Assembly: GCF_000695095.2 (NCBI RefSeq)
Contig: NZ_CP011454.1
Span: forward strand, 2,356,001 to 2,420,000
Length of the DNA stretch: 64,000 nt
Direction: 5' to 3'
Source of the DNA: Gemmatimonas phototrophica
GTDB taxonomy: Bacteria; Gemmatimonadota; Gemmatimonadetes; Gemmatimonadales; Gemmatimonadaceae
Part shown: positions 30,811-45,388 of the stretch, in pieces
How the letters are laid out: each line of letters begins with the position of its first letter
How positions within the stretch are numbered: the stretch's first letter is position 1
The notes under the pieces: model-generated
Databases searched by the model: none
Seen by the model: the letters and a program-made list of their open reading frames with translations, nothing else
What the model was told of the DNA's origin: nothing
Translations under genes and position numbers: made by a program

Positions 30811-31089
30811 CTAGAAGAGGGACCGCGCGATCAGGTAAGCGATCAATACCCCGAGGAGGCTCAGCAGGGAGACATCCAGGGCGACTGGTCCAACCGCAAA
30901 CTTCAATATAATCAGATCCACGGGAAGTGGACCAACCGCCGGGGTGACCCCCGTGGTGAGGAACTCCTTCACGGCCCCGGCAGGGAGGAAGCGACGGGCG
31001 ACCTGGGTGAGCAGCCCCCCACTTACGAAACCGGACGCCAGTACCAACAGGTGAAACACCGGACGATGCTTTGATGGTCCCTTGGCCAT
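30811..31089 (-). CDS. Small two-helix membrane protein, DUF4321-like
   Basis: 92 residues. A hydrophobic N-terminal helix (VFHLLVLASGFVSGGLLTQVA), a GVTPAVGPLPVDLIILKFAVGPVALDVSLLSLLGVLIAYLIARSLF C-terminal half with a glycine-proline turn and a second membrane helix. The pattern fits my memory of the DUF4321 family, usually encoded near cell-division or envelope genes; no function is known. The ATG overlaps the polyprenyl synthase stop (TAATG), and tatA follows after 11 nt. Confidence 0.75.
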   Translation of the reverse strand: MAKGPSKHRPVFHLLVLASGFVSGGLLTQVARRFLPAGAVKEFLTTGVTPAVGPLPVDLIILKFAVGPVALDVSLLSLLGVLIAYLIARSLF

Positions 31090-32093
31090 TACCAGCGACG
31101 CTCCACCACGTAGCCAATGGCATCCATCAGCGACGATTTGGAAGGTCCTTCCGGGAGCTCGGCCAGTGCGTCTTCGGCCTCGCGGGAGTACTGATCGGCT
31201 CGACGCCGGGCAAATTCCAACCCGCCGTGATCCCGCACAATTGCCACGACTTCGGCAATGGCTTCATCGTCCGGCTCTGGGGACGCAAAGAGGGCATCCA
31301 CGCGACTCCGCGCGGCCGCAGGCATCTCGCGAAGCGCCGCGATGAGCGGAAGCGTGACTTTGTGCTCCTTCAGATCCAGACCGCTGGGCTTGCCGGTCAT
31401 CTCCTGCTGCTCCGTATAGTCGAGCAGGTCGTCGGCGACCTGAAACGCCATGCCCAACCGCTCACCAAAGCGCGTGAGTGACTCGCGATGCTGCGGCGCA
31501 CCACATTGCGCTCCCACATCACATGCGGCCATGAACAGTGCGGCAGTCTTGGCGCGGATCAGTGTCTCGTAGTCGCTCTCACTGAACGACAGCGCATCGT
31601 ACTGCGCCAACTGTCGGATCTCGCCCAGGGTCATCTCGTTTGACGCGAACGTGATCGCTCGCATTGCGTCGAGATCTCCGATGGTCACCAGTTCCCGCAA
31701 GGCCCGCAGGTACAGGAAGTCACCCATGATGACCGAGACCTGATGGCTGAACAGGGCATTCAGCGTGGGCATGCCCCGGCGCAGCACGGAATGATCAACT
31801 GCGTCGTCGTGGACGAGCGTGGCGAGGTGTATCAGTTCGATAATGGCCGCGAAGGTGATCGCCTTTCTGGGCGATTCCCCATCGACACTGGACGACAGTA
31901 GCAGCAACGTAGGGCGGAAGAGTTTCCCCTTCATCCCCATCAGGTGCTCCTGGACATTCTGCACAAGCGGTACGTCTGCCGAGACGATACGCCACAACTC
32001 CTCCCCCACCGCAGTGAGGTCGGAGCGTACAGGTGCCTGGATGTCGCGCAATGCGGCGGCCAGCGCGGACGGAGTCCGCGTGGAAAGCGTCAT
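31089..32093 (-). CDS. Trans-polyprenyl diphosphate synthase
   Basis: 334 residues. The first Asp-rich motif LVHDDAVDHS (D96, D97, D100) and second motif DDLLD (221-225) define an all-trans polyprenyl synthase of the IspB/HepT type. GKLFRP and KTAALFMAACDVGA are further signatures. It elongates farnesyl or geranylgeranyl diphosphate, most likely for the menaquinone side chain. Chain length cannot be read safely from the residues before the first motif. It overlaps both neighbours: the TPR gene upstream (ATGA-type) and the DUF4321-like gene downstream. Confidence 0.93.
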   Translation of the reverse strand: MTLSTRTPSALAAALRDIQAPVRSDLTAVGEELWRIVSADVPLVQNVQEHLMGMKGKLFRPTLLLLSSSVDGESPRKAITFAAIIELIHLATLVHDDAVDHSVLRRGMPTLNALFSHQVSVIMGDFLYLRALRELVTIGDLDAMRAITFASNEMTLGEIRQLAQYDALSFSESDYETLIRAKTAALFMAACDVGAQCGAPQHRESLTRFGERLGMAFQVADDLLDYTEQQEMTGKPSGLDLKEHKVTLPLIAALREMPAAARSRVDALFASPEPDDEAIAEVVAIVRDHGGLEFARRRADQYSREAEDALAELPEGPSKSSLMDAIGYVVERRW

Positions 32094-35000
32094 CGGGAAG
32101 CCTGCTCGAGTGCCGCCAAGCGGGCGGCTACGTCACGGAAGTTGATATCGGTCGCGTACACGCGCTGAAAATAGCTACGGGCCTCGTCCCTGCGCTGCAG
32201 GGCTTCGCACGAATATGCGAGAAGATAGAGGACTCCAACGCGCTGGTCATCATCCAGTCCGGGTTCGTGGAGCGCCCGGGACAGGACCGTCGCGGCGACC
32301 TGGAATCTCCCCTGCTCCACGAAACATTGCCCCAAAGCCTCGTACGCCGGTAGCCGGTGCGCACGACTTCTAAGCGCCTTCTGGAATTCGGCGATCGCGT
32401 CGTCGAGCAGTCCCATCTCCTTGTATGCCACCCCAAGGTCGTAGTGACTCTCGAAATCGTCCTCACCCAATGAACGCGAGACCCCCTCCTTAAAGTGCCT
32501 GAGCAGGGAATCAAAATCCGCCTGTTCGTCGCCACTGATGGCCGGCTCCCGCATGCGCATGCGGGTATCCACCGGCTTGTCATCATCACGTAGCCAGTCG
32601 GCGAGATCCACGAAGCTATCGTCGGGCCGTGCGGCTACTGCCGGGGGGGGCGGAGGCGGCGCGGCGGGGCCGAGGGCCTCGCGCGCTCGGTCGTCGTAGG
32701 GGTCAATTTCGAGCACCCGAGCATAAACGGCGCGGGCGCGACCCTCCTCGGCCATACGAACCAGAGCATCGGCCAGATCCAGATAGGCCAGCCGCAACCG
32801 CTGCTGGTCATTGCTGCGGACGGCCAGCTCCACCCGTTTTTGGTGGTACGGGACCCGGTCAGGGCTCACATGCACCAGTTCGTCGGCAATATCCGAGGCC
32901 GCCACGAATTCGCCGTCATTCACCAGCCCGGTCTGGGCCGTTTCCAGCTCCGCCAGCGCCGCGTCTCGCTCGCCCGCCTCGAACAGCGCCTCGGCCAGTC
33001 GCCGGCGCAGCAGCCAATTCTTCGGCAGCCGGGCCACCGCTGCGCGGAGCGCATCCCGTCGGGAGGACGCCACACTGGTTGCCGCTTCAGCCACGGCAGC
33101 AATAGGCAAGGCAGGCGTGACGCTCACCGGTCGGCGAGGCACCTCGTCGGCACCGGCGTCCTCGTCCTCAACGGCTTCGGGGTCGAAGATCGTCTCGGCC
33201 GCATCATCATCGACGTCGAAGGTATCGTCTATACCGACGACCGGCTCCTCAGATCCCCTCCCGGCGGCCGATGCCAACGGCCATGACGCCGGCGCTTGCC
33301 GATCCGCGGCGCCGGCGGCCGCATCTGCGGGTTCGGTGGCGACCGCCTCCACCGACAGGGGCGTGTCGCGCAGAGCGCTCAGCGCGTCAGCGACTGCCGA
33401 GTCGGTGTCGGGAGCCGGCGAAGACGTCGAGACGGAGAGCCCCGCGTCAACAATGGCGTCGTCCAGCAGGAGAGGGGGGAGCTCGCCTGGCAGAATGAAA
33501 TCGTGCGGATCCAACCGGAACGGCGGCCGGTACGGCTCCAGCTGCTCTTCCACCTCATCGATTACGTCGTCGATGTGGGCCAGAACCGCTGCCGGCGGGA
33601 CCTCCGTCAGCACCACGGCCGTGTCGATGACTAGCTCTTCTTCCTCGACTTCCTCTTCTGTGGACGTGATTGCTGGCGCCACGATCTCCGACTGCAGCAT
33701 CGGCATCGGCACGATGGGCGTAAGCACCATCGGCAGGACCGGGATCTCTTCCGCTTTCGCCGCGTCTTCAGCCAGCTCCACCAATTCCCGACCCGCCGCA
33801 ATGGCGGCATCGAGCTCCGGGACTGATTCTACCTCCAGTGGCTCGATCGAGAGATCGTGGACATCGATCTCGGCGTCCTCAACAAAGGCCGGCACGTAGG
33901 CTGGTGTCTCGGTGTAGATCGCCCGGGCCACCCCCTGGTCGTTCGCCGAATCCTCGTAATCTTCGATGACAGCGTCATCGAGATGGGGAAGGTCCGGTTC
34001 GTTATCGGGGGGAAGGATCCACGTCACATCGGTGGCGTGAAGAGACGGATCCACATCCAGCACCGGGCTCAGCACCTCGTCGGGGGCAAAGCCCTCCAGC
34101 ACGGGCGTGCCCTCTAGGTCTGCGAACTCGCCATTGGCCTCCAGCCCCTCAAGCGCTGGTACCGCACGATTCGCCATGGGCGTGGGGGCCGCGCGGTCAA
34201 CAAACGGCTCCACCAACGGCTCCACCAACGGCTCCACCCACGGCTCGGATTGGACCGACAACGCGTCGATCACCGGTGCGTCAAGCTCAAGCGGCAATGC
34301 CATGGCGGACGAGTCGGCCATGGTTGGATCGACCGCAGCGGGTTCCAGCTCCACGCCCGTCTCTGGCGTGACCGGATCGACGACATCGACGGGAGCGAGG
34401 TCAGCGAGCGCCGGGGCCGGTTCGACCGTGGGCTCCAGCCCTTCCATGGTAACGATCAGCGCCGCCGACAACGGCGTAATTACCGAGGCGGTGGGCACCA
34501 CCGTTTGTGACACCGGGGTCGGAATCTTTGCCGTTCTGGCCGGCGTGCGCCGTGACGCCTCGCCGTAGTCCACATCGAGGAACACCAGGTCCTGGGACTT
34601 CTGGTCACGCACCACCGTGTTGGACGCCGGCGTGGGCTGCCGGTCGGAGCGGAGCGGTGTCTTGCGGCGCGGAAGGGCAATCCCTGAGCGTGCCGCAAGG
34701 TCATCGACCATGGTGCGCACGTCGTTGAGCTCCGGCATGAGATCGAGCACTTCCGCCAGCGCCCGGATCCCCTCCTCAATTCGCCCATCCTGCTGCATGC
34801 GGGTGGCGTATTCGAGGAAGTTCCGGGTGGCATCTCCGCGGAGTCCCTTTCGCGCCGAGATGCGTCCGAGCGTGAAGTACACGTTGGCCCGCCCCGGTGC
34901 ATTCCGCAGGATCTTGTTGCAGAGGGCAATGGCGTTGTTGAAGAGGCCGGACGTGGCGTAGTGCTCTACCGCCCGCTCGTAGTACGTGATGGCGTCGGGG

Positions 35001-35176
35001 ACGCGCCCCTGCCGGAGCGCGAGGTCGCCCACCTTGTTGTAGAGGGCAACGTCTACGTCCTCGCCAGCCGACTCGCTCTCCTCAATGGCCTTGACGTACG
35101 AGGCAATGGCGCGGTCGATCTGCTTGAGCTGCTCGAACTCAGCCGCCTTCTTCCGATACTTCGCGGCGTTGGACAT
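32090..35176 (-). CDS. Giant TPR protein with long acidic linker (1028 aa)
   Basis: 1028 residues. N-terminal TPRs at about 5-170 (RKKAAEFEQLKQIDRAIASYVKAIEES, LYNKVGDLALRQGRVPDAITYYERAVEHY, NNAIALCNKILRNAPGRANVYFTLGRISARKG, EEGIRALAEVLDLMPEL). A highly acidic Val/Pro/Glu-rich, probably disordered region covers about 190-720. C-terminal TPRs occupy about 730-1028 (NWLLRRRLAEALFEAGERDAALAELETAQ, DLADALVRMAEEGRARAVYARVLEIDPYDD, LGVAYKEMGLLDDAIAEFQKALRS, YEALGQCFVEQGRFQVAATVLSRAL). There is no signal peptide. It is the first gene of the operon with polyprenyl synthase, DUF4321-like and tatA. Function unknown; adaptor or scaffold is an inference. Confidence 0.87.
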   Translation of the reverse strand: MSNAAKYRKKAAEFEQLKQIDRAIASYVKAIEESESAGEDVDVALYNKVGDLALRQGRVPDAITYYERAVEHYATSGLFNNAIALCNKILRNAPGRANVYFTLGRISARKGLRGDATRNFLEYATRMQQDGRIEEGIRALAEVLDLMPELNDVRTMVDDLAARSGIALPRRKTPLRSDRQPTPASNTVVRDQKSQDLVFLDVDYGEASRRTPARTAKIPTPVSQTVVPTASVITPLSAALIVTMEGLEPTVEPAPALADLAPVDVVDPVTPETGVELEPAAVDPTMADSSAMALPLELDAPVIDALSVQSEPWVEPLVEPLVEPFVDRAAPTPMANRAVPALEGLEANGEFADLEGTPVLEGFAPDEVLSPVLDVDPSLHATDVTWILPPDNEPDLPHLDDAVIEDYEDSANDQGVARAIYTETPAYVPAFVEDAEIDVHDLSIEPLEVESVPELDAAIAAGRELVELAEDAAKAEEIPVLPMVLTPIVPMPMLQSEIVAPAITSTEEEVEEEELVIDTAVVLTEVPPAAVLAHIDDVIDEVEEQLEPYRPPFRLDPHDFILPGELPPLLLDDAIVDAGLSVSTSSPAPDTDSAVADALSALRDTPLSVEAVATEPADAAAGAADRQAPASWPLASAAGRGSEEPVVGIDDTFDVDDDAAETIFDPEAVEDEDAGADEVPRRPVSVTPALPIAAVAEAATSVASSRRDALRAAVARLPKNWLLRRRLAEALFEAGERDAALAELETAQTGLVNDGEFVAASDIADELVHVSPDRVPYHQKRVELAVRSNDQQRLRLAYLDLADALVRMAEEGRARAVYARVLEIDPYDDRAREALGPAAPPPPPPAVAARPDDSFVDLADWLRDDDKPVDTRMRMREPAISGDEQADFDSLLRHFKEGVSRSLGEDDFESHYDLGVAYKEMGLLDDAIAEFQKALRSRAHRLPAYEALGQCFVEQGRFQVAATVLSRALHEPGLDDDQRVGVLYLLAYSCEALQRRDEARSYFQRVYATDINFRDVAARLAALEQASR
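34203..34238. repeat. Three perfect 12-bp tandem repeats inside the giant TPR gene
   Basis: The unit AACGGCTCCACC occurs three times without change and encodes VEPLVEPLVEPF on the minus strand. The unit sequence differs from that in the other TPR gene, but unit length and copy number are identical. Confidence 0.9.
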
Positions 35177-35252: not shown

Positions 35253-36530
35253 TCAACCTGTCACGTGACAAGCACGTCCGCCGCGCCACGACCCGATACA
35301 GAGACGCTCGCCAAACCAGTAAGGCAACGCTCGGTAGTCCTCTACGGCGTGGACCGCGATATCGGCCTTATATCCCGGGGCAAGCTGTCCGGTTTCCCCC
35401 GCCAGCCCCAGCGCGGCCGCACCATTCACCGTTGCAGCGACCCACGCTTCAGCGGCGGACATCCGCAATTCACTGACAGCGAGCGTCAACACCAGCGGAA
35501 AGGCCTGCAACGGCGATGTCCCGGGGTTGAAGTCGCTGGCCAAGGCAACGGCCGCCCCCGCCTCCATCAAGGCGCGTACGGGCGCCTGGCGCCCCGTCCC
35601 AAGGAACAACATCGTCGCCGGCAGGACAGTCGCGACCGTGTCGCTGGCGGCCAGCGCCGCCACACCGGCTGGCGACACCGCCGCCAGGTGGTCCACGCTC
35701 ACTGCGCCCAGCTCCACCCCTAGCGCCGCCGCCCCGCCGTCGTGCAACTCGTCCGCATGCATCTTGGGGCGCAGCCCCAGAGGCTTGCCGGCGTTTAACA
35801 CCAGCCGCGTTTCCTCGGCGTTGAACACTCCGGGCTCGCAAAAAATGTCGGCGAACGTCGCCAGCCCTTCCGAGGCCACCTGCGGGAAAATGTCCCGGGT
35901 GATGGTCTCGATCCATGCCGCACGCCCATCGGTGCGCTCGCGATACTCCAGGGGGATCTCGTGGGCCGCTAGACAGGTGGCCACGACGCGCATGGGGCCT
36001 TCCGCCGCTAGGCGGGCAATGACCCGCAGCGTCCGCAACTCATCGTGGGGGGTGAGACCGTACCCGGATTTGATTTCGATGGTCGTCACACCCCCGGCGG
36101 CGATGCGGGCTAGTCGGGGACCAGCCAAGGCATACAACTCCTCATCGGACCGTGCGCGCAGATCGCGCACCGAACTGTGAATTCCGCCACCGCGCCTAGC
36201 GATTTCCATGTACGGCACACCGGTGGCGCGCAGTTCGTGCTCGCTGAATCGCGCGGCGCCAAAGACCGCATGGGTGTGTGAATCCACGAATCCGGGGGCC
36301 AGTAGCCCCCGCTGGCAATCGACCTCCGCGGCGTTGGGAATCTGACGACGCAACGCGTCATCTGACGCCGTGGCGACAATGCGATCCCCCTGCACCGCCA
36401 CCCCCAGCCCGGCATGTACGCCGGCCGCCTGCATTTCGATGCCACGGCGGGCCCGCCCGGGGCCGGCACACGTGATGGTCTGGGCCGCGTTGACGAACAG
36501 CGTCGTGGGGTGCGCGTGGAGAGAGGTCAT
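35253..36530 (-). CDS. hutI: Imidazolonepropionase
   Basis: 425 residues. Amidohydrolase metal motif VDSHTHAVFG; substrate-pocket sequence GGGIHSSVRDLRARSDEEL; EIKSGYGLTPHDELR; later ligands in KMHADELHDGG and SDFNPGTSP. It opens the imidazolone ring to give N-formimino-L-glutamate, the third step of histidine breakdown. It is last in the hut cluster, 15 nt after the radical SAM gene. The fourth-step enzyme (HutG or HutF) is not in the window. A 12-bp palindrome TGTCACGTGACA overlaps its final codons. Confidence 0.97.
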   Translation of the reverse strand: MTSLHAHPTTLFVNAAQTITCAGPGRARRGIEMQAAGVHAGLGVAVQGDRIVATASDDALRRQIPNAAEVDCQRGLLAPGFVDSHTHAVFGAARFSEHELRATGVPYMEIARRGGGIHSSVRDLRARSDEELYALAGPRLARIAAGGVTTIEIKSGYGLTPHDELRTLRVIARLAAEGPMRVVATCLAAHEIPLEYRERTDGRAAWIETITRDIFPQVASEGLATFADIFCEPGVFNAEETRLVLNAGKPLGLRPKMHADELHDGGAAALGVELGAVSVDHLAAVSPAGVAALAASDTVATVLPATMLFLGTGRQAPVRALMEAGAAVALASDFNPGTSPLQAFPLVLTLAVSELRMSAAEAWVAATVNGAAALGLAGETGQLAPGYKADIAVHAVEDYRALPYWFGERLCIGSWRGGRACHVTG

Positions 36531-36545
36531 GGCAACCGTGCGTCG

Positions 36546-37538
36546 CTACTCGGTGGGAGTGACTGTAGCCATGACGTCCCGTACGCGGGACGCGAGGCGC
36601 AAGGGAGCCTGTGCCTCACCTCGGCAGGCGTAGAAACAGGCGTTGCAGTTGATGGGCTCATACCCCCGGTACGAATCCCACGGGCCGTCCGGCTTGAAGT
36701 CGGGACACCGCCGTACCTGCCCCTGCGGGTCAATGTGAATGGTGGTGGACCCGCTGTGACAAGGCTCGTTCATTTCGCCGCGGACATAGCGCGGGATCTG
36801 TTCGAGATAGTAATCAGAGTTGGTAATGACGCCGGCGCGCTTGCGCTTGTAGGCGAGCAACGCGTCGACCACGCGCTGGACTTCGGCCGGATCGATCGCC
36901 TGCAGCACGTGCTCTTCGTTGCCATTCTTGAGCGCGGTGTAGACGGAGAAATTCACCCCTCCACCCATGGCGGCCGCCTTCTCCACAATAGGGAGAATCT
37001 GATCGAGATTGTCGTTCTTGATCACGGTATTGAAGCGCACGCCGCCAATGCCGGCCTTCCGCATACGCGGCACGAGATCGAGAATCTTTTCGGTCAACCC
37101 CGGAATACCGCGCGCCGTGTCATGTCGACCATCGAGATAGTCGAGGGAGATATTGAATTGGTCCACCCCTGCATCCCACAGCGACTGCGCCCGCTCGAGG
37201 GAGAGCATGCCGGCGTGCGTAATGAGCTGCACATAGGTGTAGCGTACGGAGCTGCGGACGGCACGCACAATGTCTTCAAGATCACGCCGCAATGTGGGCT
37301 CGCCACCGGTGAACGTGACCAGCATGGGACTGAAGTGCTTCGCGATCTGCGCGAAGTTGGCCCATTCCCGTTGCTTCTCGCTGGCCGGCGTCTGCCAGTA
37401 GTCGCAAAACCCACAACGCGCATTGCAGCGCATCGTGACTTCAAAGTTCAGCAGGACCGGCCGTCGCCGAAGACGTAACCACGCATACTTGGCCAGAAAG
37501 ATCGGAACATGATACGGCTTATACCGGCTGGACAGCAT
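36546..37538 (-). CDS. Radical SAM protein with SPASM/twitch-like cysteine tail, inside the hut operon
   Basis: 330 residues from ATG 37538 (GGAG 5 nt upstream; the frame runs on to 37652 as antisense shadow of hutU). The 4Fe-4S/SAM motif is CNARCGFC (C38, C42, C45), with GGEPTLR as the SAM-binding strand. The C-terminus has a second cysteine set, C260, C278, C298, C301 and C305, in RRCPD and NCNACFYACRG, suggesting one auxiliary cluster as in twitch/SPASM peptide- or protein-modifying enzymes. The N-terminal YKPYHVPIFLAKYAWLRLRRRP is amphipathic. No histidine-degradation step needs such an enzyme. It sits 10 nt after hutU and 15 nt before hutI. Substrate unknown; no small precursor peptide is evident alongside. 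Confidence 0.88.
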   Translation of the reverse strand: MLSSRYKPYHVPIFLAKYAWLRLRRRPVLLNFEVTMRCNARCGFCDYWQTPASEKQREWANFAQIAKHFSPMLVTFTGGEPTLRRDLEDIVRAVRSSVRYTYVQLITHAGMLSLERAQSLWDAGVDQFNISLDYLDGRHDTARGIPGLTEKILDLVPRMRKAGIGGVRFNTVIKNDNLDQILPIVEKAAAMGGGVNFSVYTALKNGNEEHVLQAIDPAEVQRVVDALLAYKRKRAGVITNSDYYLEQIPRYVRGEMNEPCHSGSTTIHIDPQGQVRRCPDFKPDGPWDSYRGYEPINCNACFYACRGEAQAPLRLASRVRDVMATVTPTE

Positions 37539-37548
37539 CAGGACTCCA

Positions 37549-39210
37549 TCACTGTTCGCGCATGGGCAAGCGAATACCCTCACGCGCTGCCGTGTCCAGC
37601 GCAATCTCGTAGCCCGCGTCGGCGTGGCGCGCCACGCCAATGCCCGGATCATTCGTCAGGACGCGCTCCAGTCGGCGCCGCATGCGCTCGGTTCCATCAG
37701 CGACGATGACCTGCCCGGCGTGCAGCGAATTGCCAATGCCCACGCCACCGCCGTGATGGAACGAGACCCAGCTTGATCCGCTGGCCACATTCAGGAGCGC
37801 GTTGAGGATGGCCCAGTCGGCAATCGCATCGCTGCCGTCCTTCATGGCTTCCGTTTCGCGGAAGGGCGACGCGACGCTGCCTGTATCCAGGTGATCCCGA
37901 CCAATCACAATGGGCGCCGCCACCTCACCGCGCGCCACGAGGTCGTTCAGTGCCAGCGCAAAACGCGCGCGCTCGCCCTGTCCCAGCCAACAGATGCGAG
38001 CCGGCAGTCCCTGAAAAGCAATGCGTTCCTGCGCCAGCGTGATCCACCGCGCGAGCTGCGCGTTGTCCGGAAACATCTCCAGCGCCAGCGCATCGGTGCG
38101 AGCAATGTCGGCCGGGTCGCCGGAGAGGGCGACCCAGCGGAATGGCCCCTTCCCTTCACAGAACAAGGGACGGATATACTCCGGGACAAAGCCCGGAATA
38201 CGAAACGCATCTTCAAGTCCCGCATCGAAGGCGACCGTACGGATGTTGTTGCCGTAGTCGAAGGCCACCGCGCCGCGATCCTGCATGGTGCGCATGGCGC
38301 GCACATGGGCCACGATGCTCGCATCTACCCGTTCGAGGTACGCGGCCGCATCCGCTTCGCGCAGTGTGCGCGCCTCTTCGAGGGAGAGCCCGGACGGGAT
38401 ATATCCCACCAGCGGATCGTGCGCGCTCGTCTGATCGGTCACCACGTCCGGGGTCAGACCACGGCGGACGAGTTCCGGAAGTACGTCGGCGGCGTTGCCG
38501 AGCAACGCCACCGAGAGACCGGCGCCCGCGGTCTGCGCCTCGCGCAGCCAGACCAGGGCCTCGTCCAGCGATGAGGTGCGGCGATCGCAGTAGCGGGTGC
38601 GGATGCGCATATCGATACGACTCGAATCAACCTCCACCGCCAGCACGGCGGCGCCGTGCATGGCCGCGGCGAGCGGTTGTGCGCCACCCATACCGCCCAG
38701 ACCGGCCGTCACCACGAAACGTCCCGCCAGTGTCCCACCAAAATGCCGCGACGCGACCGCGCCGAAGGTTTCGTAGGTCCCCTGCACGATGCCCTGCGAG
38801 CCGATGTAAATCCACGACCCGGCCGTCATCTGTCCGTACATGGTCAGCCCGAGTTTTTCGAGCCGACGGAACTCGCTCCAGGTGGCCCAGCGCCCGACGA
38901 GGTTGGCGTTGGCAATCAACACGCGGGGCGCATCACTATGGGTGCGAAAGACCGCCACCGGCTTGCCACTCTGCACCAGCAGCGTTTCGTCGTCGTTCAA
39001 CGACTCCAGCGTGCGCACGATGGCATCGAACGCGTCCCATGATCGTGCCGCCCGCCCGGTGCCTCCGTAGACCACCAGGTCATCGGGCCGTTCCGCGACA
39101 TCGGGGTCGAGGTTGTTGATGAGCATGCGCAACGCCGCTTCCTGCTCCCATCCCTTGCAGCGCAGCGCTGCCCCACGCGGGGCGCGCACTTGTCGCGGTC
39201 CACTGGTCAT
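37549..39210 (-). CDS. hutU: Urocanate hydratase
   Basis: 553 residues, the usual length. NAD-dependent enzyme with [25 protein letters not shown], the dinucleotide region [20 protein letters not shown], the catalytic-type region [14 protein letters not shown] and the C-terminal [24 protein letters not shown]. It hydrates urocanate to imidazolonepropionate. The start codon shares bases with the hutH stop, so the two are translationally coupled. Confidence 0.98.
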
Positions 39211-40727
39211 CAGATCACCACCGACGTCGTCAGGCTGTCAAAGGCTCCGGACGCCATGGCGGCACCAAGCCGGGCAATATCCGGAGCGGGCGACCGATCA
39301 CCACTGGCGGGCGCCACCTGCGCACGCACCAGTGCGTGCGCAGCTTCCACCGCCATGCTGCTCCGCAGCGGCCGGCGATGCTCAAGCGCTTCGGCACCGG
39401 CAATCAGTTCGATCGCCAGCACATGACGCAGGTTTCGCACGGAGCGACGAAGCTTGAGCGCTGCGTTCATCGCCATGGGAACCACATCTTCCTTGTTACC
39501 GTCGGTGGGAATCGAATCCACACTCGCCGGATGCGCCAACAGTTTGCACTCGCTGGCGAGCGCAGCGGCGGTAACCTGTGACATCATGTGCCCCGACTCG
39601 AGGCCGGGGGACGCCGCGAGAAAGGGCGGTAGCCCCTGATTGAAATCGGGGTGCACCAGCCGATCAATACGCCGCTCACTGATGACGGCCAGGTTGGCCG
39701 TAATGATGGCCAGCATATCGCTCGCCATGCCCACGGCCTGTCCGTGAAAATTCCCACCGCTGAGCAATTCGCCGGTGGCGAGCACCAGCGGATTGTCGGT
39801 GGCGGCATTCAGCTCGCGCTCGATGATGTCACGCGTGAAGCGCAGCGCATCCAGCGCAGGGCCATGGACCTGCGGCACGCAGCGCAACGCATATGCGTCC
39901 TGCACCCGCGGATCACCAAAGCGATGCGACTCGCGGATTTCACTCCCCCCCAGGAGCACGCGCAACAGCGCGGCAGATTCTGCCTGCCCCAGTTGGCCGC
40001 GTGCCTCCTGAATCCGGGCGTCAAAGGCGTCGGGCGTTCCAAGCAGCGCCTCCAGTGTCATGGCCGTCGCGACATGGGCAATCCCCCAAAGTCTGATCAG
40101 CTCAGCACACGCCAGCCCGGCCACCGCCGTATGCGCCTGCGTGCCATTGATGAGCGCCAGCCCCTCTTTGGCCGCCAAGGTCACCGGCGTGAGGCCTACC
40201 TCTGTCATGAACACCGAGGCGAGATCTTCCCGATCGCCGAATCGTGCCGGCCCTTCGCCAATGAGCGCCAATGCCAGATGCGCGAGCGGCGCCAGATCCC
40301 CACTGGCCCCCACACTGCCCTGCTCAGGAACGACCGGCCAGATGCCGGTATTCAGCATCCCCAGCAGCGTATCCACCACATCGGGGCGCGCGCCGGCGTA
40401 AGCGGTCGCCAGGACATTGGCCCGCAGCAACATCATGGCCCGCACCTCCCGCTCAGGCAGCGGATCTCCCACGCCAGCGGCATGACTCCGTACCAGATTG
40501 CGCTGCAACGCCGTCAGCTGCTCGAGCGGAATGGTCACCTCGCTCAGCTTGCCGAAGCCGGTATTGATGCCATACACCGGTGCGCCGCGATCCACCGCGC
40601 GATCAACAACCGCACGGGTCTCAACCATGCGCGCACGTGCTTCGGGCGACAGCGAGACGGGACGCCGGGCGTCGGCGACGGCAAGCAGGTCGGTCAGGCG
40701 GAGGGAACGACCGTCAAGATGCAGCAC
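39210..40727 (-). CDS. hutH: Histidine ammonia-lyase
   Basis: 505 residues. The Ala-Ser-Gly triad that cyclises to the MIO electrophile is present at 141-143 ([13 protein letters not shown]). [10 protein letters not shown] (52-61) carries the catalytic Tyr. It deaminates histidine to urocanate and is first in the hut cluster. It begins 38 nt after lptD with no terminator between, so hut expression may partly depend on the envelope operon (inference). No HutC-type regulator is in the window. Confidence 0.97.
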
Positions 40728-40765: not shown

Positions 40766-43729
40766 TCAGAAGTTGCTCGACCGATACGTTTGGCGGTCGT
40801 AGTTGAACTTGAGGTCAGGTTGGGCTTTCAACGCGATGAAGAAGTTGAAAGCGAAGTTACCACTCGGGGTCTGCGAGAACGAGAAGACGGCACTCCAGTC
40901 GTGCAACTGGCGCTGCAAGCCAATCTGTTGGCTGGCAAAGCGAGCCCGCTCCACATCATACTGGGTGGTCCACTGCGCGGACCAATTGGGGGTGATGCCG
41001 AACGACATGCTGGCATTCACACTCTGCACCGGAGGCTGGCGAACAAACGGGGCACCAATGGCACTTTGTCCCGTCCCGAGTCCCGTGGGTGGCGACGTCT
41101 GGGCGTTGAGGAAACAGCGCTCGTACGCAGCGATGCCCTGAGAGCGGAAAGGCTCACACTGTTTGACCGGATCCACCTCGATAACCAACCCGTTGCCAAC
41201 GGGCGCACGCTGGCGCGCCGCGTTGTACTGGATGTTGAGGTTCCATCCCTGGTCCGAACCCGGCAGCGCCGACTGCATCCCGCGCATAGCGCCTCCCCCG
41301 GCCGCATTCATCTGGCGTGTTTGGCGTGTGATGTTCTCCTGCGACGCCGTTTGCCGAGGATTGATGGACGCGCTATCCGCCAGATCCGGCACCTCCTTGC
41401 CCAGCAACTTCGCCAGAAAGCCAAAGATGGCCGATTTGCTGTTCAGGGAGAACGTGACCCCCATGTCGGTGCGGTACGGATCGAAGACCGCCGTATCGGA
41501 GGCCGGGTCACCCTGAAAGAGATCGTAGCTGGCGCGGAAATCGAGCCCCGGCAGCAGATCCGTCCGTCCGCCAATGGAGAACATCTTGTCGGTGAATCCG
41601 TTGCCGGTACTGTCGGCCCGCACAAAGTCCCAACTCAACGGCGAGAAATTGAGCGACAACAGCTTGATCTTGCGTCCCTGATCGGGTTCGGAATCGGTGG
41701 GGGCGCGCAGCTTGGCTTCGAGATTGGTGGTCAGGTTGAGCGAGACGCGATTCTGCGCCAGCGCCCCCAGGTACCCCACGCGCGTGCGTCCGATGGCCTG
41801 CAGATACTCATCGCTTACCGAGGCCGCGGGGGAATAGCTGTAGCTGATCGCCGGCGTGATGGCGTGCCGCAATTTTGAGATGGGGCCGATGCCGGGGAGC
41901 ATGGCATAGAGCGTGGGAGACGCACTCAGGGCGTAGCTCAGCCGCTTGCTCTGTGACACCCACTTGCCACCGCTGCGTTCGGTGCGGACAAAGAGCCCCC
42001 CCTGATCCACATTGGCCACCGATACGCTTGGGGACACGTTCCACGTGCCCTGAAAGAACCGCGGTAGATTGAACGAGGTGGTCCAATCCACGTTGGTTTC
42101 AAAGGTCCGGGCAAACACACGGATGCTCCGCACCGACGTATCGCGCACACCAATGATCTCGCGCTGCTCGGGGTAATCGCGGTACTGCTCCGTCACGGTG
42201 AACGAGTTCTGCCACTGGAAATCCCAGAGCTTGATGGGCGTATCGAATCCGAACTGCATGTTGCGGCGGCTCGCATTGAAGCGCGCACTATCCACGCCGC
42301 CACTGTTGTTGATGTTGTAGACAAATGGGAACTGCAGTCCCTGGTCGATCTTGCTCGACCCTGAGATCCCCAAACGCAAAGATGGCGTCCACGAGACCGG
42401 TCCGGCTTCGAGCGTCCCTGTGGTCACATTGAGCTGCGGGAAGTCCATGTCCACTTGCGGACGTCCCGGATATTGCACTCGCGAGCCACCCACGTTGATG
42501 GAGGCTGGCCCAATCTTGGTCTGGTAATTCAGCTGCGACCGGATGGTGGCATTGGCGGCCATCGGGTTCACGGTCGTATTGCGTTGAATCTGGGTGTTCT
42601 GCACCAGGTTCATACGCGCCGTCAACTTTGTATTTTTCGAGAAATCCTGGTTGTGATTCCAGGTCCACGACGTATTGCTGGTCCCGTTCCGGAGCGCCAT
42701 GTATGACATGGCCAGCTCTCCGGTAATGAACCGGTTCACCCAGCGGTAGCGCATGTCGGCATTACTGCGCAAAAACCCGGGGTCGATCTCGGAACTGCGG
42801 GCTCCCGAACGCCAGTCCATGGAGACTTCGGCGTTCATGTAATCATTGATCGCAAAAAAATAGCCAATGTTCTGCACACTGCGGCGATACGACGGGCTGT
42901 TCCGGAACAATTCGGCCACGCCGAAATTCGGCGTCAGCATGCCGCTCCGGCGACCGGACCGCACATCCTGGAAGAAGAACGGGATCCAGAACACCGGCAC
43001 TTCGCCGATGTACAGCACCCCCGGGCGCGCCACCATGACATTCTGCGACACGAACTTCATGTCGCGCGTCGTGAAATGGAAATGCGGCTCGGCGTGATCG
43101 CAGTACGTAAACGAGCCGTTCTTGGCGAACACCACGTGGCGACCGCTGACGAGCGTATCCGATAGGATCGTGCTTTCTTTGGCTGTGAGAAACAGACGCT
43201 GGCCACTCACCACCGATGTCGAGAACCCATTGGTGAACCCTTGCCGCGCCTCAAGATCGTATTCGATCCGTGAAGAAATCACGTCATCGGCGTCCTGCGC
43301 CGTTGGATCGCGCAGGAGTACCGTGTCGCCAGTCGCGACGACCTTCTTCGTCGAATCGTTGTACTGGATGGAATCGCCCACCAGCATCGTCTCGTCGCGA
43401 AGTACCGCCGACGGCTTTCCCTTGAGAATGAGAATGCGCGTATTGGCATTGAACTTCACCGTATCGCCCTGGTACTGCACCTTTCGGTACCCTTCCAGAT
43501 CGAGCAGCGCGCGCATGGCGGAATCGGGGGCAGTCCACTGATACACCCGCGAATCCTTGGACAGCGGCCTCGTACTATCCTGCCCGGCCGCAGGCTGCCC
43601 CACGCCTGCCGGTCGCTGAGGGCGCTGCGGGGCGCGCTGCGCCTCTGCAGGAGCGCTCGCCACGAACAGCCCGGCCAGCACCGCCAGCCCGGCGCGCCAC
43701 CAGCCGCGACGGGTGGGGCACTTGGTCAC
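40766..43729 (-). CDS. lptD: LPS-assembly outer-membrane protein LptD (OstA) family
   Basis: 987 residues. Signal peptide ending near APAEA. An OstA-like beta-jellyroll (about residues 75-200: NANTRILILKGKPSAVLRDETMLVGDSIQYNDSTKKVVATGDTVL). Then the family hallmark region VPVFWIPFFFQDVRSGRRSGMLTPNFG and a large barrel ending in a terminal Phe (YRSSNF). It would insert lipopolysaccharide or a related lipid into the outer leaflet. The paired cysteines of enteric LptD are not obvious, as in many distant homologues. The start overlaps the tatC stop (ATGA). lptE is not recognised nearby. Confidence 0.88.
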   Translation of the reverse strand: MTKCPTRRGWWRAGLAVLAGLFVASAPAEAQRAPQRPQRPAGVGQPAAGQDSTRPLSKDSRVYQWTAPDSAMRALLDLEGYRKVQYQGDTVKFNANTRILILKGKPSAVLRDETMLVGDSIQYNDSTKKVVATGDTVLLRDPTAQDADDVISSRIEYDLEARQGFTNGFSTSVVSGQRLFLTAKESTILSDTLVSGRHVVFAKNGSFTYCDHAEPHFHFTTRDMKFVSQNVMVARPGVLYIGEVPVFWIPFFFQDVRSGRRSGMLTPNFGVAELFRNSPSYRRSVQNIGYFFAINDYMNAEVSMDWRSGARSSEIDPGFLRSNADMRYRWVNRFITGELAMSYMALRNGTSNTSWTWNHNQDFSKNTKLTARMNLVQNTQIQRNTTVNPMAANATIRSQLNYQTKIGPASINVGGSRVQYPGRPQVDMDFPQLNVTTGTLEAGPVSWTPSLRLGISGSSKIDQGLQFPFVYNINNSGGVDSARFNASRRNMQFGFDTPIKLWDFQWQNSFTVTEQYRDYPEQREIIGVRDTSVRSIRVFARTFETNVDWTTSFNLPRFFQGTWNVSPSVSVANVDQGGLFVRTERSGGKWVSQSKRLSYALSASPTLYAMLPGIGPISKLRHAITPAISYSYSPAASVSDEYLQAIGRTRVGYLGALAQNRVSLNLTTNLEAKLRAPTDSEPDQGRKIKLLSLNFSPLSWDFVRADSTGNGFTDKMFSIGGRTDLLPGLDFRASYDLFQGDPASDTAVFDPYRTDMGVTFSLNSKSAIFGFLAKLLGKEVPDLADSASINPRQTASQENITRQTRQMNAAGGGAMRGMQSALPGSDQGWNLNIQYNAARQRAPVGNGLVIEVDPVKQCEPFRSQGIAAYERCFLNAQTSPPTGLGTGQSAIGAPFVRQPPVQSVNASMSFGITPNWSAQWTTQYDVERARFASQQIGLQRQLHDWSAVFSFSQTPSGNFAFNFFIALKAQPDLKFNYDRQTYRSSNF

Positions 43730-44490
43730 GCGGCCTCGGCGGCAAGGCTCCGCTCGCGTCGCCGCACGATGAGCTTTGAGACGGTAATTGAGACTTCGTA
43801 CAGCCCGTAGAGCGGGATGGTCAGCAAGAGCAACGACGTAGGATCACTGCCGGGCGTAATGACAGCCGCGGCAATAAGACACCCGACGGCAGCGTGGCGG
43901 CGAAACTTTGACAGGTACTCCGGCTGCACGATGCCCAGCGCAGACAACAGGGCGATCACCACCGGCAGTTCAAAAATGGCGCCGAAGGCGAGACACATCG
44001 AAATGATGAGACCGATAAAGCGGTCAACCGTTGGCATGACCACAGCGGCTTCGCTTTGAAACGAAAAGAAGAACGCGAGCGTGACCGGCACGACATACTT
44101 GAACGCCAGCAGCATACCGAGCAAGAACAGCACGGCCGCGCCAACGAGTGCCGGGATCACGACCTTCTTTTCGTGCTTGTACAACGCCGGCGACAAAAAG
44201 CCCCAGATCTGCCAGGCAATCACCGGCGACGCCGCAATGAGCCCGAGCGTGATAGCCGCATCCATGGCGATGTCGAAGAGATCACCCGGCGCCGTTACGA
44301 TCATAGGCCCCTTCAGGAACGGCCGAATGGGCTCCGACAGAATGGCCACCACATCGATCTGCTTGCTGAAGATCAGCACAAAAGACACACCGATCCCGAT
44401 GGCCAACGCCAAGGCGATCTTGAAAAGGCGCCAACGCAGCTCCTCGAGGTGCTCGAGGAACGGCATTTCTGCAGGGCTACTACCGGTCAT
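43726..44490 (-). CDS. tatC: Sec-independent protein translocase subunit TatC
   Basis: 254 residues from ATG 44490. MPFLEHLEELRWRLFKIALALAIG is the TatC N-terminal signature. Six membrane helices follow, with the conserved FLSPALYKHEKKV loop, and FELPVVIALLSALGIV and VAAVITPGSDPTS near the C-terminus. It is the twin-arginine signal receptor. tatA lies 13 kb away at 30545. It stands between cpoB and lptD, overlapping lptD by 4 nt. Confidence 0.96.
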   Translation of the reverse strand: MTGSSPAEMPFLEHLEELRWRLFKIALALAIGIGVSFVLIFSKQIDVVAILSEPIRPFLKGPMIVTAPGDLFDIAMDAAITLGLIAASPVIAWQIWGFLSPALYKHEKKVVIPALVGAAVLFLLGMLLAFKYVVPVTLAFFFSFQSEAAVVMPTVDRFIGLIISMCLAFGAIFELPVVIALLSALGIVQPEYLSKFRRHAAVGCLIAAAVITPGSDPTSLLLLTIPLYGLYEVSITVSKLIVRRRERSLAAEAA

Positions 44491-44521
44491 GCGTAGGGGA
44501 TTCCAAAGTAAGCGGCAGCCC

Positions 44522-45388
44522 TTAACGGAGCGTCTTGAGCGTTTCCGTGGCCAGTTCTGCCTCGTCGCTGCGCGGGTAGCGTGCGACAACCTGCTCGAAC
44601 AACTGGCGCGCCTGTGCGGTATTCCCCTGCTTCAACACCAGCTGGGCGCGCTTGTACAGCGCCGTGGGGGCTTTGGCCGACGACGGGTAGGCACTGACGA
44701 CGGCGGCATAGGCGGCATCAGCCGCCGGCACGTTGTTCTCTTTGGCCAACGACTCCGCAATCCAGAACTGGGCATCCGAGGCGTAATCGGATTGCGGGTA
44801 GTTCGTAATCAGCTCCTGAAACGTCATGCGAGCCGTTGCCGTGGCCCCGCGAAGCAACTGGTCACGTCCCGTGGTATACAGCTGATTGGGACCAGCCAAT
44901 ACCGAAGTCGTGTCAACGGCAACGGCCGGTGGTGTCGTCGCGGGAGGATTCGACCGACTGCTCCCACTGCGTCCGGACGGTGCCGGATCAGCCGACGGCG
45001 CCGGCGCCGTCGGTGGAGGCGTCATGGTGTTTCGCACCTCCATTTCTGCCCGCAAACGCGCAATGGTGGCCTGACTCTGCCCCAGTAGCGTTTGGATCTG
45101 CAACAGCTGTTCACGAACCCCACGCATCTCGCCGCGCACATCGCCCTGGATGCTTACGGTACGCGCGCTGACCTTGGCCAGTGAATCACTGGCCACCTGA
45201 ATCAGTCGCTGCGTTTGCGCGAGTGCGTCTTTGTGCTCCTGCTGGTTCTTCAGCATCTCGGCGCGCAGCGACACGATATCGCCTTGGACAATGCGAACAT
45301 CGCCACGCGTCGCAAAGCAGCCCCCCGTGGCGCCAAACGCCACGAGGGGAAGCAGACGCCACACACGGTGGAAATACGGTTGGAACAT
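44522..45388 (-). CDS. cpoB: Cell division coordinator CpoB/YbgF-like (Tol-Pal associated) lipoprotein
   Basis: 288 residues. Lipoprotein-type N-terminus LLPLVAFGATGGC. A coiled-coil region spans about 30-120 (VSLRAEMLKNQQEHKDALAQTQRLIQVASDSLAKVS). A Pro/Ser linker follows, then three C-terminal TPRs (YTTGRDQLLRGATATARMTFQELITNYPQSDYASDAQFWIAESL, AAYAAVVSAYPSSAKAPTALYKRAQLVLKQG). In proteobacteria CpoB is periplasmic and links Tol to peptidoglycan synthesis; here a lipid anchor is predicted. It lies 29 nt after pal. Confidence 0.9.
   Translation of the reverse strand: MFQPYFHRVWRLLPLVAFGATGGCFATRGDVRIVQGDIVSLRAEMLKNQQEHKDALAQTQRLIQVASDSLAKVSARTVSIQGDVRGEMRGVREQLLQIQTLLGQSQATIARLRAEMEVRNTMTPPPTAPAPSADPAPSGRSGSSRSNPPATTPPAVAVDTTSVLAGPNQLYTTGRDQLLRGATATARMTFQELITNYPQSDYASDAQFWIAESLAKENNVPAADAAYAAVVSAYPSSAKAPTALYKRAQLVLKQGNTAQARQLFEQVVARYPRSDEAELATETLKTLR

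Follow-up and report, generated by a model that had tools for sequence, protein, structure and literature searches.

The full SPASM domain of radical SAM enzymes is a seven-cysteine motif with two auxiliary clusters; the twitch domain is a truncated SPASM with the motif CX9-15GX4C plus further Cys. The twitch domain carries one auxiliary cluster, ligated by four Cys in BtrN, and peptide maturases are plentiful in the twitch/SPASM class (PMC9012708). The described enzymes compared here with the radical SAM protein of the studied locus (below, rSAM) are BlsE, cytosylglucuronate decarboxylase (PDB 7vob; PMC3715490); BtrN, 2-deoxy-scyllo-inosamine dehydrogenase, a twitch enzyme; PqqE, SkfB, and SuiB, SPASM peptide maturases; and MoaA, GTP 3',8-cyclase of the twitch class. 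A literature search on radical SAM enzymes with the hut operon or in Gemmatimonas yielded nothing relevant.

The window (the whole stretch of 64,000 nucleotides that was analysed) comes from a genome assembled as a single contig of 4,716,552 bases and contains rSAM in the following setting:

43726..44589, minus strand: tatC-like gene, named from sequence and synteny; member of the ancient block
40766..43729, minus strand: gene of an lptD-like outer-membrane protein, named from sequence and synteny; constant upstream border of the rSAM interval
39210..40727, minus strand: hutH, histidine ammonia-lyase (TIGR01225, 616 bits vs. cutoff 539)
37549..39210, minus strand: hutU, urocanate hydratase, directly upstream of rSAM (TIGR01228, 943 bits vs. 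cutoff 375)
36546..37538, minus strand: rSAM, predicted twitch-type radical SAM enzyme of 330 aa (ORF, Pfam, alignment, fold)
35253..36530, minus strand: hutI, imidazolonepropionase, directly downstream of rSAM (TIGR01224, 389 bits vs. cutoff 298)
32090..35176, minus strand: gene of a large TPR protein (tpr), named from sequence and synteny; constant downstream border of the rSAM interval
31089..32093, minus strand: polyprenyl synthetase-like gene (pps), named from sequence and synteny; member of the ancient block, used in the tree

The gaps between hutU and rSAM and between rSAM and hutI are 10 nt (37539–37548) and 15 nt (36531–36545), respectively, and hutH and hutU have 1 nt in common; both the coordinates and the NCBIfam equivalogs agree with the first-pass annotation, which had placed a radical SAM gene between hutU and hutI with gaps of this size. 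The rSAM start codon at 37538 (MLSS...) is conserved among relatives; a longer ORF reaching 37652 is a mechanical call. HutG- and FTCD-family genes are found in the same genome, hence the later steps of the histidine pathway need no new enzyme.

Pfam Radical_SAM (PF04055) matches the protein with 85.6 bits (cutoff 29.5), and C38, C42, and C45 form the CX3CX2C radical-SAM cluster motif, so that motif, Pfam match, and core fold all place rSAM in the superfamily. The C-terminal region follows the twitch cysteine pattern, C260-X12-G-X4-C278 ... C298-X2-C301, and ends in the run C298-x-x-C301-x-Y-A-C305-R-G-E; both are invariant in the 61 aligned family members, as are all eight cysteines (C38, C42, C45, C260, C278, C298, C301, and C305), each of which the first-pass annotation had pointed out. 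This invariance shows that the cysteine pattern is not due to chance. A full SPASM domain is not seen in rSAM, since the C-terminal cysteines number five. Given the motif and the folds nearest to an AlphaFold2 model (pTM 0.80, mean pLDDT 76), i.e., BlsE (Z 19.7), PqqE (18.3), SkfB (17.5), and MoaA (17.4), rSAM is assigned to the twitch/SPASM class. Cysteines C260, C278, C298, and C301 are candidate ligands of an auxiliary cluster, the pattern suiting a single cluster with four Cys ligands, of the BtrN kind; thus, the auxiliary cluster proposed earlier gains support from CX12GX4C plus CX2C and from the nearest folds.

The top structural match, BlsE (3.3 Å over 272 residues), has the radical SAM core in common with rSAM, and its C-terminal region is also aligned; however, the identity is 20%, the BlsE model of NCBIfam yields 43 bits vs. 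the 400-bit cutoff, and nucleoside antibiotic genes are absent near rSAM. Four cysteines of rSAM, in the order CX12GX4C ... CX2C, match those of BtrN, although the Z-score of BtrN is only 13.2, and rSAM adds a fifth invariant cysteine, C305. MoaA is similar in the radical SAM core (E-value 1e-19 to PDB 1tv7), but its model gives rSAM 82 bits vs. the cutoff of 284. PqqE, SkfB, and SuiB resemble rSAM in the fold and in CX12GX4C opening the C-terminal domain; the differences are five C-terminal cysteines in rSAM vs. seven of full SPASM, lack of an adjacent precursor peptide, and, for PqqE, 73 bits vs. the cutoff of 381. The occurrence of these three maturases among the nearest folds, as well as the abundance of peptide maturases in the class (PMC9012708), allows for a tentative alternative, that rSAM matures a small (RiPP-like) peptide or a protein specific to the family, encoded at another genomic site; however, no conserved small ORF adjoining rSAM is seen in the rSAM loci, where the short gaps to the neighbours leave no room for one, and small-molecule enzymes BlsE and MoaA match equally well or better.

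Radical SAM subgroup models, suggested in the first-pass annotation as a way to classify the protein, do not name it: rSAM is below the cutoff of every named NCBIfam radical SAM equivalog (MoaA, PqqE, HpnH, BlsE, AhbD, PTO1314, and others), the best score being that of PTO1314 (88 bits vs. 306), and its distant relatives do not pass any NCBIfam cutoff either. Outside the family, there are only relatives of 27–33% identity; the nearest ones are four-Cys twitch proteins from other Gemmatimonadota-level families (loci L147–L161), which have C260, C278, C298, and C301 in common with rSAM, but lack C305 and reside in other gene neighbourhoods. The absence of C305 from distant relatives sets the family's version apart.

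The gene is present in 159 of 179 genomes of the family, which is probably Gemmatimonadaceae, and in 102 of 105 good ones, almost always in a single copy. Family genomes lacking rSAM are mostly incomplete assemblies (e.g., the contig of G031 stops inside hutI), and a closed hutU|hutI junction without rSAM is seen among them in G101 only. Relatives in families f7, f9, f4, and f2, about 52–58% identical among themselves, make up a second type; the two types do not occur together in any of 159 genomes. Genome G176 has three copies on three contigs (L099, L100, and L101), two of which cluster with another genus, suggesting contamination. The protein is under strong purifying selection, and an uncharacterised twitch enzyme kept under strong constraint by about 97% of good family genomes presents a clear target.

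Elsewhere in the order and class, outside the family, the ancient block reads tatC-lptD-hutH-hutU-hutI-tpr-pps, with hutU adjoining hutI (e.g., L200, L203, L204, and L206); some of the sister-family blocks miss some hut genes, and none contains an rSAM homologue at E ≤ 0.01. The lack of rSAM from these blocks indicates that a single event brought it into the hutU|hutI junction, prior to the diversification of the family; one insertion in the family ancestor would be the simplest reading of these gene orders. Descent from one insertion explains the conserved order of hut and rSAM without a functional link.

We examined 103 rSAM loci, of which 97 are readable on both sides (two G176 loci are likely contamination). 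Among the readable loci, 80 have the order hutU-rSAM-hutI, 13 lptD-rSAM-tpr, and 4 hutH-rSAM-tpr; hence, 17 of 97 have neither hutU nor hutI at the locus. The hut-embedded arrangement, which about 82% of readable loci retain, has median gaps of 18 and 36 nt around rSAM and, given such short gaps, rSAM and hut are probably co-transcribed. In L065, L085, L097, and L112, a stretch of about 0.8–1.9 kb separates rSAM from hutI. In a quickly built maximum-likelihood tree based on pps, rSAM, and lptD, with SH-aLRT support only, hutI was lost from the locus about seven times independently by parsimony count, and rSAM was retained every time.

The departed hut genes are located elsewhere, often still clustered (L130, L133, L134, L135, and L138), and an rSAM homologue is found beside none of the relocated or replacement hut clusters at E ≤ 0.01. 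HutU encoded in L134 and L135 is about 75% identical to that of the window, hence here the native hut set has probably moved. In G067, G180, G134, G393, G244, G243, and G419, identities of HutU, HutH, and HutI to those of the window are 63–64, 48–50, and 38–44%, respectively, vs. 70–76, 52–55, and 50–53% for the sister family; as these replacement proteins are more distant than those of the sister family, the set is probably foreign. Such divergent sets (HutU of 63–64%), located at L128–L133 and L138, appear to replace native hut in several lineages. The dN/dS ratio of rSAM is 0.024–0.098 in hut-less loci vs. 0.030–0.085 in hut loci, these being rough values, with several dS above 1; the constraint persisting where the Hut proteins are foreign argues against rSAM serving a Hut protein.

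The opposite case is presented by G101 (100% complete, 20 contigs), the one genome that retains hut without rSAM: hutH-hutU-hutI lie inside one contig, rSAM is missing between hutU and hutI, and it is not found in the genome at E ≤ 1e-30. As G101 is nested in the family on the tree, the absence of rSAM is a secondary loss. Of the 105 good family genomes, 104 have hutU, hence presence and absence supply no natural experiment in which rSAM occurs without hut. That rSAM and hutU occur together was considered as evidence of a link and discarded, both being near-universal in the family. The data show that rSAM and hut need not adjoin, and that hut can persist without rSAM; a histidine-derived substrate of rSAM is still compatible with them.

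A functional tie of rSAM to histidine use is not supported. If the place in the operon reflected the function, rSAM would modify a Hut protein or convert a side metabolite derived from histidine or urocanate. The tight spacing inside hut, seen family-wide at 80 of the 97 readable loci, and the presence of hutU somewhere in every rSAM-bearing good genome, point in this direction, but we consider it quite improbable, given that rSAM never accompanies hut on relocation, is constrained where the Hut proteins are replaced by foreign ones, is absent from the hut blocks of related families, and was dropped by G101, which kept hut, and that no pathway step is obviously missing in a genome with HutG- and FTCD-family genes. 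A component of the hut system would be expected to move along with hutH, hutU, and hutI, and at none of the approximately seven departures did rSAM do so; the gene is therefore not locked in the hut operon, as the first-pass annotation had described it. Of the three roles suggested there, that of a passenger is favoured by the evidence, and those of a Hut-protein modifier and of an enzyme handling a histidine or urocanate metabolite are disfavoured. Two observations that were to speak against a link were also named there, and literally neither is made: homologues are not equally common away from hut, 82% of the readable ones being in hut, and the gene order is family-wide, not confined to one strain. 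The locus is a case of a tight operon position being misleading, with the hut neighbourhood conserved by descent throughout a family and rSAM, judging by the recurrent departures and foreign replacements of hut, not depending on that neighbourhood.

The explanation we deem likely is that rSAM is a twitch radical SAM enzyme of the whole family, that its substrate lies outside the Hut system, and that the hut operon serves it as an expression site. Following its insertion between hutU and hutI, rSAM would be expressed from the hut operon or, where hut departed, from the tatC-lptD-tpr-pps run, and, as an enzyme needed by nearly all family members, would act on a substrate outside histidine catabolism. 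Judging by the class, the [4Fe-4S] cluster on C38, C42, and C45 would cleave SAM, producing the 5'-deoxyadenosyl radical, which would abstract a hydrogen atom from the substrate. With C260, C278, C298, and C301 as ligands, an auxiliary [4Fe-4S] cluster might then accept an electron, as in a BtrN-like oxidation, or else, again by analogy with the class, support another, redox-neutral step of the BlsE or MoaA kind; C305 may act as an alternative cluster ligand or a catalytic thiol. That the C305-bearing enzyme catalyses an undescribed reaction on a central metabolite or protein, possibly one that does have a connection to histidine or urocanate, seems to us a remoter prospect.

The interval between lptD and tpr holds rSAM in all 97 readable loci, and where hut departed, rSAM follows lptD by about 13–55 nt. 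In another lineage of the phylum, a relative of 27–29% identity has a gene for a LolD-like ABC ATPase on one side and one for a LolA-like protein on the other. Together, these observations might suggest that rSAM belongs with the envelope genes (lptD, tat, tpr, and pps), its target being a lipid or protein of the envelope. We regard this as unlikely: the tatC-lptD...tpr-pps block occurs without rSAM in other families, hence the neighbourhood is inherited, not recruited, and further relatives adjoin pntAB or moaA instead. The location next to LolD- and LolA-like genes is that of a four-Cys twitch relative from family f11, seen in five genomes (L149, L152, L154, L155, and L156), where the three genes form a conserved triad.

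A search of plasmids with rSAM by tblastn yields only general MoaA/PqqE-like proteins of less than 30% identity. A scan of contigs for exact peptide patterns, which has limited sensitivity, finds close relatives in records named Gemmatimonas, Gemmatimonadetes, or Gemmatimonadaceae, the exceptions being a pond MAG (L037), a spurious 20-aa match (L056), and one mislabelled record (L042). The latter, titled Candidatus Kuenenia stuttgartiensis, has a Gemmatimonas-like locus with 81% identity; a wrong title or a mixed bin is the probable reason.
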